Below, piece by piece: positions 6,097 to 63,701 of a DNA stretch of 64,000 nucleotides. Source of the stretch: Desulfuromonas acetoxidans DSM 684 (GTDB lineage Bacteria > Desulfobacterota > Desulfuromonadia > Desulfuromonadales > Desulfuromonadaceae); the NCBI RefSeq assembly GCF_000167355.1, contig NZ_AAEW02000002.1, positions 124,001 to 188,000 of the forward strand, given 5' to 3'. The translations under genes were made by a program, and so were the position numbers. The notes beneath the pieces were generated by a model. That model saw only the letters and a list, made by a program, of their open reading frames with translations. It did not search any database and was not told the DNA's origin. Positions within the stretch are counted from its first letter, which is position 1, and every line of letters starts with the position of its first letter.

Positions 6097-6114
6097 TTGA
6101 CACACAACAAGATA

Positions 6115-6163
6115 AAAAGAAACAGCCCCTTGCCAGTTGAAAACGCAAGGGGCTGTTTCTTTT
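6115..6163 (+). terminator. Intrinsic terminator of sucCD
   Basis: A 19-bp perfect stem (6115-6133 with 6145-6163; core ACAGCCCCTTGC) with an 11-nt loop, flanked by A-rich and T-rich ends, begins 18 bp after the sucD stop. Confidence 0.9.
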
Positions 6164-6183
6164 TATTCCTACACCTTAAAACC

Positions 6184-6660
6184 AAGATCAAAACCGCCGG
6201 GTTTCGTCCCGGCAGCCGACATACTTTTGGCTGGCCGCCCTTTAGGTCGACGAATCGTGCAACTCATCATCTTTGGGGTAAAATGTTGACAACAATCTTC
6301 AGTCGTGCTCTATCTCTGGTGTGGCATCGATCAAACGGGCGGGACGGTGCCCGCCCTGCAGTAGTGTATTATTGAGCAGCCAAGCTCTCCCGTTCAGCAG
6401 CGCCGAACGAAGAGAACGGTCACCGCGATGGTCGTCGGCAACCTGTCTGAGCGTCAGCGAGTTTTGCCGACATCGTGGTGTAAGTGAACGCAGAGAGGGA
6501 ACCCGTAAGGGCGCAATGACGGGAGTCGATTTTGCGGTACTTTTGTCGACGCAAAAGTGCCCCGAAGTGCGGGCGCGGAAGCCCGCGTCACGTGGGTACC
6601 ACCTTCGCGAACGGATGAAGTTCGCCAGAGCGATTCGTTGCGTATTACGAACCACTGAAG
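6184..6660. repeat. Long intergenic repeat, copy 1 (tandem with copy 2)
   Basis: Non-coding repeat unit shared with 6661-7245, about 9685-10345 and about 63005-63620. It starts with a remnant of the hairpin module (CCGGGTTTCGTCCCGG; ACATACTTTTGGCTGGCC). It continues through CCGCCCTTTAGG-CGACGAATCGTGC, the palindrome GGGCGGGACGGTGCCCGCCC (from 6337), CCGTTCAGCAGCGCCGAACG, GAGTTTTGCCGACATCG, and the hairpin CTTTTGTCGACGCAAAAG. The distance from this copy's GGGCGGG to that of copy 2 is 581 bp. No plausible protein is encoded. Confidence 0.85.
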
Positions 6661-7245
6661 CTCAAGATCAAAGTCAAGGTCGCCGGGTCTCGCCCCGGCA
6701 GGCGACATCCTTTTGACTGGCCGCTCAAAAGGATGCAAAAACCGGCTAAACACCTCCTGAACCTGGATTCACCGACAATGAGTTTGTTTCCGTTATGCGT
6801 CACGGATTCGGCTCGCCGCCCTTTAGGACGACGAATCGTGCAACGCATCATCTTTGGCGTAAAACGTTGATAATAACCTTAAGTCGCGCCCTATCTCTGG
6901 TGTGGCACCAATCAAACGGGCGGGACGGTGCCCGCCCTGCAGTCGTGTGTTATTAAGCAGCCCAGCCCTCCTGTTCAGCAGCGCCGAACGAAGAGAACGG
7001 TCAGCGCGATGGTCGTCGGCAACCTGTTTGAGCGGTAGCGAGTTTTGCCGACATCGTGGTGTAAGTGAACGCAGAGAGGGAACCCGTAAGGGCGCAATGA
7101 CGGGAGTCGATTTTGCGGTACTTTTGTCGACGCAAAAGTGCCCCGAAGTGCGGGCGCGGAAGCCCACGTCACGTGGGGACCAGGCCACGAGAACGGATGA
7201 AGTTCGCCAAAGCAACCTGACCACCCCACGAACCACAAAAACCCG
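6661..7245. repeat. Long intergenic repeat, copy 2
   Basis: A nearly complete unit of about 585 bp and close to identical with copy 1 over its second half. It contains the hairpin module GTCGCCGGGTCTCGCCCCGG, CTTTTGACTGGCCGCTCAAAAG, and then the same order of palindromic modules as copy 1. The unit ends just before the thiM stop codon. Between sucD and thiM (6097-7263) there is therefore only a terminator and repeat DNA. Confidence 0.85.
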
Positions 7246-9684: not shown

Positions 9685-10345
9685 CCCAAGACCAAAATCA
9701 AAACCGACTTTTAGACCCGGCGCTCCGAGGAGTCGCAAACCCACTGACACTGAGTTGACTTCCCATTTACATGACGAATTCGGCTCACCGCCCTTTAGCA
9801 GGGTGTTGAAAAAGTCCCATCCGGGGCCTTTTCAACGACGCAAGCCGAAAATGCGATTTCCGTCTTGCTTACAAAATCAAGCACTTGAAAACATGTCCTT
9901 GATTTTGGTCGCCCGTCCATGGGCTCCATAGGCTGTTTTTCAACAGCCTGTTAGAACGACGAATCCTGCTACGCATCAACTCTGGCATAAAACGTTGAGA
10001 ACAAACCTGTGCCGTTCTCTATCTCTTCCGTGGCATCTCCCTCGCCACTGTTTCTGATTTTGCAACCAAGCTCCCCCGTTCAGCAGCGCCGAACGGAGTG
10101 AACGTCACCGCGATGGATGTCGGCAAACTGTTTGAGGACTGATGCCGACTGGGCGAGTTTTGCCGACATCGTGGGGTAAGTGAACAGAGAGAGGGAACCT
10201 AAAGGGCACAATGGTCAGGGGTCGTTTTTCCGTCTCTTTTGTCAACACAAAAGGGACCCGACGGCAGGCGCGGAAGGGGTACCATCAATGCAGACGGATA
10301 AGGTTCGCCAGGGCAATCTGATCCATTCTGCGAACCACCTAAAAT
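9685..10345. repeat. Long intergenic repeat, copy 3 (diverged, interrupted by a mobile element)
   Basis: The same modules as copies 1, 2 and 4 appear in decayed form: CGGCTCACCGCCCTTTAG, then (after the insertion) AACGACGAATCCTGC, CCGTTCAGCAGCGCCGAACG, GAGTTTTGCCGACATCG and CTTTTGTCAACACAAAAG. The unit is split at 9798/9951 by a 152-bp hairpin-ended element. The whole nfeD-ftsK gap (9521-10408) consists of this repeat plus the nfeD upstream region. Confidence 0.8.
9799..9950 (-). mobile_element. 152-bp hairpin-ended MITE-like element (element 1) nested in the long repeat
   Basis: Ends are near-perfect inverted repeats: CAGGGTGTTGAAAAA at the left, and TTTTTCAACAGCCTG (complement CAGGCTGTTGAAAAA) at the right. 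TTAG occurs on both sides (9795-9798 and 9951-9954). The uninterrupted sister repeat reads CCCTTTAGGACGACGAAT at about 6824, consistent with a 4-bp target duplication. Read on the minus strand, an end hairpin AGGCTGTT-GAAA-AACAGCCT is followed by the core TGGAGCCCATGGACGGGC, a central hairpin (AATCAAG...CTTGATT) and a distal hairpin (GTTGAAAA/TTTTCAAC). No ORF, so it would move only with an enzyme supplied elsewhere. Confidence 0.75.
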
Positions 10346-44543: not shown

Positions 44544-47186
<2,643 letters not shown>

Positions 47187-47190
47187 CGCG

Positions 47191-47352
47191 CGAGCCTTTT
47201 GCAAAAAAGGCTCGTGGAGCCCATGGATGGGCGACCAAAATAATCGGTTTCGCTAACGAGTATCCCTGTTAGTCCGATGATTTTGTGAGCTTTTGGAAAT
47301 GACACTTTTCAAAAGCGTGTTTTCAAAAAGCAGAGACAGCTTTTTGCAAAAA
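47191..47352 (+). repeat. Hairpin-ended intergenic element 2 (alaS-cupin gap)
   Basis: Same family as 9799-9950 and 58971-59116. The end hairpin GAGCCTTTT-GCAA-AAAAGGCTC (47192-47213) leads into the core GTGGAGCCCATGGATGGGC (from 47214). A middle segment ends GATTTTGTGAGC, and the distal hairpin is CAAAAAGC-AGAGACA-GCTTTTTG. The first hairpin could also terminate alaS transcripts. No flanking direct repeat was recognised here. Confidence 0.65.
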
Positions 47353-47372
47353 CCTACATCATGGAGTAAGAC

Positions 47373-63004: not shown

Positions 63005-63620
63005 TTAGCAGTGGTTCCCCCCTACAATAGTATGTTATTTCGCACCCCAGCCCTCCCGTTCAGCAGCACCGAACGCAATGAACGTCAGCGCGATGGTCGT
63101 CGGCAACCTGTTTGAGCGTCAGCGAGTTTTGCCGACATCGCGATGTAAGAGAATGAAGAGAGGGAACCCGCAGGGGGCAATGACGGGAGTCGATTTTACG
63201 CCTCTTTTGTCGACGCAAAAGGGGCCCGACGTGTGGGCGCGGAAGCCCACGTCACGTGCGTACCAGAATTGCGAACGGATGATGTTCGCCAGCGTGATTT
63301 GTTCCGAATTGCGAACCACTGAAGATCAAGATCAAAGTCAAGGTCGCCGGGTCTCGTCCCGGCAGCCGACATACTTTTGACTAGCCGCTCAAAAGTATGC
63401 AAAAACCAGCTTGGATACCTCCTGAACCTGGACCAACCGACAATGCGTCTGTTTCCGTGATGCTTCACAGATCCGGCTCGCCGCCCTTTAGGTCGTCGAA
63501 TCGTGCAACTCATCATCTCTAGTGTAAAACGGTGATAACGGTTTAACGCAGCGCCCTACTTCTTTCGTGGCACCTGTTAAATGGGTGGGCAGTGCCCACC
63601 CTGCCGAGGTTTGTTATTGA
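63005..63620. repeat. Long intergenic repeat, copy 4
   Basis: About one full unit plus a partial duplicate of its own start. The order is the GTTATT..CAGCCCTCCCGTTCAGCAGC module, GAGTTTTGCCGACATCG, the hairpin CTTTTGTCGACGCAAAAG, then GTCGCCGGGTCTCGTCCCGG, CTTTTGACTAGCCGCTCAAAAG, CCGCCCTTTAGGTCGTCGAATCG. It closes with GGGTGGGCAGTGCCCACC (from 63583), about 580 bp after the module at its start. It fills the gap (62964-63701) between the DUF2889 gene and the EAL gene. Confidence 0.85.
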
Positions 63621-63701
63621 GCACCAAACGGAACGTGTAGACCTAAATATGTCATTCAAGCCACGACGGTATCAACGCCAACCACACAGGACAATCATCA
63701 T

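Follow-up and report, generated by a model that had tools for sequence, protein, structure and literature searches.

The repeat of about 580 bp found in four copies in the window, the 64,000-nucleotide stretch of the Desulfuromonas acetoxidans DSM 684 genome analyzed here, is probably a non-autonomous, intergenic DNA element of about 545 bp that resembles MITEs and REPINs. It is dispersed and amplified in the genome and avoids the spacers between divergent genes. In other phyla, the same kind of end appears to bracket cargo genes. The best reading of our data is that the elements of the window are cargo-less here and belong to a wider, cassette-like superfamily, the evidence for cargo coming from taxa other than the genome of the window.

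Anatomy and genomic context of the element

The repeat is real, intergenic, non-coding and multicopy, as the original prediction had it. Its 20-nt central hairpin has 118 matches with at most 3 mismatches in the 3.82-Mb assembly (51 contigs), versus 0 for the reversed pattern. A DNA search of the genome with the repeat returned at least 100 pieces (best 40 of 115 candidates scored), and R1, the model of the element's end described below, gave at least 133 matches at E ≤ 0.01 (best 150 of 1885 candidates scored); left ends predominate among those listed, and some of the weak matches are right ends. The features of the four copies in the window are as follows.

6184..6660, + strand: element copy 1, an internally deleted module B followed by module A, with a tail that runs into copy 2
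6194-6267, + strand: left end of copy 1 (R1, 27 bits)
6390..6409, + strand: central hairpin CCGTTCAGCAGCGCCGAACG at the B/A junction; in the other copies it starts at 6971, 10076 and 63056
6526..6588, - strand: right end of copy 1, a two-hairpin end reading inward (R1, 24.9 bits, E 6.9e-5)
6661..7245, + strand: element copy 2, a complete B-A element with a tail (direct-repeat alignment and unit mapping)
6680..6745, + strand: left end of copy 2, a two-hairpin end (R1, 78.4 bits)
7107..7169, - strand: right end of copy 2 (R1, 22.1 bits, E 3.9e-4)
9685..10345, + strand: element copy 3, a degenerate B-A element with a nested insertion
9799..9950, no strand assigned: nested MITE-like insertion in copy 3, with ends CAGGGTGTTGAAAAA / TTTTTCAACAGCCTG and TTAG on either side (read directly)
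10222-10273, - strand: right end of copy 3 (R1, E 0.036)
63005..63310, + strand: copy 4, module A, the right half of the element
63190-63252, - strand: right end of copy 4 (R1, E 2e-5)
63326..63627, + strand: copy 4, module B, the left half of the element
63344-63409, + strand: left end of copy 4 (R1, 80.2 bits)

Copies 1 and 2 are direct repeats in tandem, with a start-to-start spacing of 581 (300 nt ungapped at 88% identity), as had been noticed. The claim that all copies share the same ordered set of palindromic modules was borne out in part. Copies 1, 2 and 4 have every named module, as such or as a variant. In the degenerate copy 3, the CCGTTCAGCAGC hairpin and a variant of CTTTTGTCGACGCAAAAG were recognized, GGGCGGG...CCCGCCC and CCGGGTCTCGTCCCGG are not clearly present, and R1 finds no left end. 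The order is conserved only cyclically, copy 4 being rotated, with A (about 63005-63310) preceding B (about 63326-63627). By the coordinates first given, the four stretches sum to 2339 bases, or 3.7% of the window, close to the estimate of about 4%. All copies lie strictly between genes, in the SucD/ThiM, NfeD-like/FtsK and DUF2889/EAL spacers. The flanking proteins match CoA-ligase (SucD), hydroxyethylthiazole kinase (ThiM), FtsK, DUF2889 and EAL in Pfam, the NfeD match of the protein flanking copy 3 being below the cut-off.

The absence of coding capacity was confirmed: six ORFs of 100 to 175 aa across the copies, three per strand, had no Pfam match, and the spacings between hairpins vary freely rather than in multiples of three. 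Both observations argue against remnants of one protein-coding insertion sequence, with which the inverted ends and dispersed copies would agree. The elements of other genera also conserve their ends but not their interior (by eye), and none of the copies throughout the genome shows a coding insertion sequence, making such an origin highly improbable.

To define the unit, 56 stretches around element matches and the window were aligned to a 579-bp consensus, and 80 element segments were mapped in them. Their start and end phases cluster, delimiting two half-modules, B from about phase 266 to 565 and A from about 560 to 250. The basic element of about 545 bp consists of module B (about 300 bp) followed by module A (about 265 bp), and carries at either margin, in inverted orientation, a 66-nt end composed of two hairpins side by side. 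Elements with a single B-A unit, about 525 to 575 bp long, are common (e.g., L041, L044, L045 and L048), and B-only, A-only and A-B forms occur together with longer alternating arrays, in which copies join head to tail into mosaics. Such arrays would grow through head-to-tail joining and unequal recombination. Units within a locus are more similar than units of different loci (0.895 versus 0.819, with only 4 within-locus comparisons). In many copies, a variable hexamer run of the AAGGTC type lies before the left edge of B; at L055, L084 and L091, runs of the AAGGTC, AAGAGC and AACCAA types lie immediately outside the left end.

The nested insertion was found in module A of 10 copies and measures 161 bp in the 5 in which both of its ends were recognized. 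In 8 of the 10, the alignment to the consensus breaks at one point, at phases 123-126/129, which indicates that these copies derive from one another. An eleventh pattern match, at L056, was not the insertion.

The genomic context of the element is strongly biased. By crude ORF-based gene calls, 38 of the 80 segments lie in convergent spacers, versus 16 of 125 other spacers (Fisher 8e-8), and 4 of 80 lie in divergent ones, versus 37 of 125 (Fisher 1e-5). This preference, the avoidance of divergent spacers and the conservation of the palindromes would suit a BIME-like site of DNA architecture or bidirectional termination maintained for the host, serving gyrase, a nucleoid protein or transcription end. 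However, such a preference is also expected from selection against promoter damage, genomes of the order differ in their number of matches, from 0 to at least 89, and a terminator-like inverted repeat (its role by reading) is already present at 6112-6166, upstream of the copy-1 array. We therefore regard a site maintained for the host as rather unlikely.

Two-hairpin ends and their covariation

The design of the end was recognized in a genome of another family (G031), where locus L129 holds a 480-bp element with a different interior. Its left and right ends are inverted copies of one two-hairpin design, in which hairpin 1 has a loop complementary to the bases just after it and is followed by a T-rich/A-rich hairpin 2. 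Alignment A2, on which R1 is based, comprises 38 chosen ends, 17 from outside the order, going by record titles, and 2 being left ends of the window's genome; five right ends of this genus and family, which are shifted by one base, were left out. In A2, 98% of the 758 cells are paired, both sides change in 10 pairs and a one-sided change is seen in a single cell. The covariation score is 0.368, compared with 0.078 in shuffled alignments, and none of 500 shuffles reached it; the count of further pair types was not above the shuffles (230/500). Several columns of A2 are fixed by the search pattern; stem 1 in its outer pairs, the loop-downstream pair 15-24 and pairs 28-62, 29-61, 31-59 and 37-53 of stem 2 are among those free of it. 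Compensatory changes, whose lack would have counted against the original prediction, are plentiful in the ends. The loop of hairpin 2 is also complementary to downstream bases, with at least 5 pairs in 69 of 233 ends, versus a mean of 18.6 and a maximum of 29 when the partners are re-dealt; this complementarity was not seen in the Nitrospirales rows, whose loop is TTTCGG.

R1 detects the ends well. Built without the right ends of the genus, it recovers, on the - strand, the right ends of all four copies in the window, at E 2e-5 to 0.036. It also finds three left ends on the + strand, which are not independent, as the 38 training rows include 2 left ends from this genome. All 14 matches listed in the window fall within the four copies. 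REP palindromes of 20 to 40 bp are marked by a GTAG or CGTC tag. By eye, GTAG is not present at the hairpin feet of left ends, and CGTC lies beside hairpin 1 in the right ends of the genus and in the outer hairpin of the Methylomonas elements.

The original prediction proposed aligning the copies with a covariance model. Such a model serves well to detect the ends, but the palindromes seem to covary like DNA, and it gives no support for a transcript. In the outer four pairs of hairpin 2 of 233 distinct ends, we counted 894 Watson-Crick, 12 G-T, 14 A-C and 12 other pairs, the hairpin scan having accepted G-T but not A-C in the two inner of those four pairs. G-T is thus no commoner than A-C, whereas RNA or one preferred strand should favor G-T, and strand-specific G-U tolerance in the covarying helices is absent from both A2 and the 233-end counts. 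In addition, the element is evenly oriented between tandem genes (19:19). Both observations point to palindromes that act as DNA, not RNA. A structured non-coding RNA family could account for the very strong covariation of the ends, with the two loop-downstream complementarities as possible pseudoknots. It is nevertheless improbable, since one of two inverted ends is always antisense, G-U pairs are almost lacking, G-T is as frequent as A-C even though hairpin selection allowed only G-T of the two in the inner pairs, and neither orientation prevails between tandem genes. No Rfam family matched the window at the gathering threshold, a sub-threshold miRNA match being alone at E ≤ 5. In the DNA-element reading, the paired palindromes would serve as DNA sites for an enzyme supplied in trans that cuts out or copies the element.

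Distribution of the ends and evidence for mobility

The R1 end is patchily distributed: dense in the order, rare in the rest of the phylum and present in other phyla. Within the order, 52 of 58 genomes, including that of the window, have matches at E ≤ 1e-4, with 0 to at least 89 per genome. In a sample of the phylum, 4 of 148 genomes have matches at E ≤ 1e-6 (best 34 candidates per genome scored), namely, the window's genome, another of the order and two others. The left-end pattern derived from L129 of G031 hit at least 120 loci; by record title, the matches listed are from Methylomonas, Comamonas, Delftia, Variovorax, Acidovorax, Polaromonas, Nitrospirales/Nitrospirota, Desulfuromonas and others. 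In the 120 listed loci, 42 of 58 adjacent ends face inward, 5 outward and 11 in the same direction (binomial p about 5e-14 for inward versus 25%), and 72 loci have a single end only. The inward distances fall into 26 of 423 to 922 bp and 16 above 1.4 kb. Plasmids and viruses were rejected as carriers, as no match to the window repeat or to one Methylomonas end was found in 72,556 plasmid records, a collection in which near genomes may be absent, and the viral collection yielded one pattern match.

We compared the element sites with those of relatives. The SucD-ThiM array is retained in G008 and G002, whose ThiM proteins are 99% and 95% identical, respectively, with different numbers of units, and the nested insertion of copy 3 is present at the same site in G008. 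Sites that lack the element, which had been suggested as a check, were found in part. In G007, the NfeD-FtsK spacer is 136 bp long and has no element, nor does the copy-4 site. In G002, the copy-4 site is nearly empty and still has a right-end relic, which indicates deletion rather than a clean empty site; site S3 in L267, the other candidate for a clean empty site, was rejected likewise, as it also kept relics. Visual inspection of 47 end pairs, two of them repeating one contig, revealed no target-site duplication. Where comparison was possible, most arrays occupy the same positions in the closest species and thus do not demonstrate recent movement. We infer mobility from dispersal, presence or absence at given sites and the common nested insertion, no transposition event having been seen. 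The proposal of a mobile or structural non-coding element rather than a decayed gene is therefore supported, with two qualifications: its mobility is deduced in this way, and its covariation resembles that of DNA palindromes.

The same comparison revealed two other differences in the window. A hairpin-rich insertion of 176 bp at 47185-47361, upstream of an apparent gene start, is absent from G002, G007 and G008. The segment 18769-27396 spans about 8.6 kb, compared with 78 to 82 bp at the equivalent place in G002 and G007 and a different 20 kb in G008, and is a candidate island.

Cassette-like pairs, RAYT transposases and known systems

Methylomonas sp. LW13 has at least 56 R1 ends (best 150 of 2544 candidates scored). 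Among the ends listed, 21 of 24 neighboring pairs less than 4 kb apart face inward, over 0.6 to 3.8 kb. We read 20 of these 21 inward pairs: in most, one or a few ORFs lie between the ends, no convincing gene being seen in L304 and L307, and nearly all have an outer hairpin of the TGTCGC...GCGACGG type on both sides (by eye). Beyond 280 bp inside the ends, no gene is common among the 20 pairs, except for RAYT genes, shared by L300, L316 and, as a fragment, L308; the other shared stretches are of at most 40 codons and lie near the inner module edge. A second short common module is seen near this edge at about 960-1075 of L303 (GGGCGCATTAGCGATAGCGTAATGCGCC) and in L298, L302, L313 and L316; we take it to resemble repeats of other Proteobacteria. 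Six of 20 LW13 ORFs scanned have Pfam matches at E ≤ 0.01: an Mrr endonuclease, PIN, cupin, TrmO, DUF1152 and a weak Y1_Tnp.

In other taxa, DUF4145, caspase-like, DUF2971, MEKHLA, Lcl_C and DUF3825 proteins lie between inward ends, and a TIR-domain ORF at L161 is flanked by two ends of the same direction. PADLOC matched 3 of 10 proteins. Some of the proteins between ends outside LW13 may be ordinary neighbors. Inward pairs 1.4 to 6 kb apart outside LW13 were rejected as autonomous elements because the genes between them differ. These genes include unrelated transposases (by reading, IS30-like in L246 and IS110-like in L247) and perhaps ordinary neighbors; no transposase gene is common to the end pairs read. 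In the window's genome, the only inward pair with genes that we saw encloses lrgA/lrgB (L362, 1769-3430), the B module lying 1.6 kb from the inward R1 match, and these may be chance neighbors.

A cluster of four elements lies in the urease and urea-transport region of LW13 (gene names by reading). The site between ureA-like and ureD-like genes could be compared in three genomes, which have the left end module in common (about 271 bp, 91 to 93%) and the right one in parts, and no match links the DNA between the ends across the three. The cargo is a 216-aa ORF in LW13, a DUF3825 gene in Methylomonas sp. SURF-2 (L273), and a RAYT-like ORF and another ORF in Methylomonas sp. WSC-7 (L236). The left end of LW13 is 93.0% identical to that of L273 and 90.9% to that of L236, versus 88.6% for the best other LW13 end; it is 94.2% identical to an end of FW.007 (L267) that is located on the right side there. 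The right end of LW13 (about 262 bp) is closest to the LW13 element L299 (92.0%), its counterparts having 85.4 to 89.2% over their own lengths, and inheritance of the ends in place therefore holds for the left end only. We read this as a replacement of the cargo with one end, which would have occurred through recombination within the modules, together with exchange between sites. Alternatively, transposition beside a retained end might have produced this arrangement. ORFs resembling a YefM/YoeB toxin-antitoxin pair adjoin the cassette in L236 and L273 and were not seen there in LW13 (by eye).

In our reading, swapping of cargo at a site would proceed through recombination within the end modules. 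We put forward, tentatively, a cross-phylum system of chromosomal gene cassettes that lacks an integrase, of which the window repeats might be cargo-less members: inverted end modules of about 270 to 300 bp, with palindromes acting as DNA, would keep the site, and genes would be exchanged by recombination of the modules.

As REPINs and TIRtrons use RAYTs, we tested the association of the ends with these transposases. TIRtron inverted repeats, some of them double-palindromic, flank Y1 transposase genes, and some share GGGGWSAS, according to Di Nocera et al. (2013; PMC3733652), where RAYTs with long, partly double-palindromic inverted repeats on their flanks are also described. Our ends might thus be sites of a RAYT or TIRYT (a Y1 tyrosine transposase), making the element a long REPIN or TIRtron derivative. 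In LW13, the inward end pairs cover 0.7% of the genome and contain 4 of the 16 RAYT-like matches; 2 more are near solo ends. R1 and PF01797 counts over the 58 genomes are correlated (Spearman 0.29, p = 0.03), but the correlation vanishes at constant genome size (partial rank correlation 0.07; top R1 counts at least 89). Moreover, none of 20 PF01797 loci fetched from the order is bracketed by R1 ends (two have weak single matches), which sets the element apart from TIRtrons. Three of six PF01797 loci checked for inverted repeats (L321, L329 and L335) have their own GGGGAGTGTCCC-type repeats, the RAYT of L300 in LW13 has its own repeat inside the cassette, and no PF01797 match at E ≤ 0.001 was found in G031, a genome that does have elements. 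RAYTs are thus disfavored as mobilizers of the element, and its origin as a long REPIN or TIRtron derivative is unlikely. The GGGGAGTGTCCC-type repeats of L321, L329 and L335 fit the TIRtron motif given in PMC3733652. At L318 (G000:C8:68500-74000), two RAYT-like genes lie close together with no R1 ends.

The non-autonomous element that we favor shares with REPINs and BIMEs the inverted pairs of hairpin units, high copy number, mosaic arrays and positions downstream of genes. It differs in scale: REP units measure 20 to 40 bp (PMC3733652), whereas here a 66-nt hairpin pair is part of a module of about 270 to 300 bp and an element of about 545 bp. Like MITEs, it is non-coding and multicopy, has inverted ends and is presumably moved in trans, but it is longer and its ends are rich in hairpins, and in the end pairs read we found neither a parental insertion sequence nor a target duplication. 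Mobile insertion cassettes carry cargo between the ends of a known IS family, and integron gene cassettes have a single attC recognized by IntI. The Methylomonas forms resemble both in carrying one or a few differing genes between common ends, and differ from integron cassettes in that the ends are inverted pairs. Palindrome-based intergenic families in Geobacter bemidjiensis and multicopy sequences in Pelobacter carbinolicus are mentioned in PMC2996986 and PMC3543383, and they resemble our element by description. In the open-access literature searched, we found no description of these ends or of such cassettes.

An unnamed 580-bp repeat of one genome of the Desulfuromonas group is now tied to a structured DNA end present in several phyla, for which R1 is a working detector. 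The data point to chromosomal slots of a cassette-like kind, with retained ends and differing genes, and how such slots are filled without a known integrase becomes a testable question. If the integrase-free cassette reading is true, genomes would have dozens of interchangeable small gene slots each.
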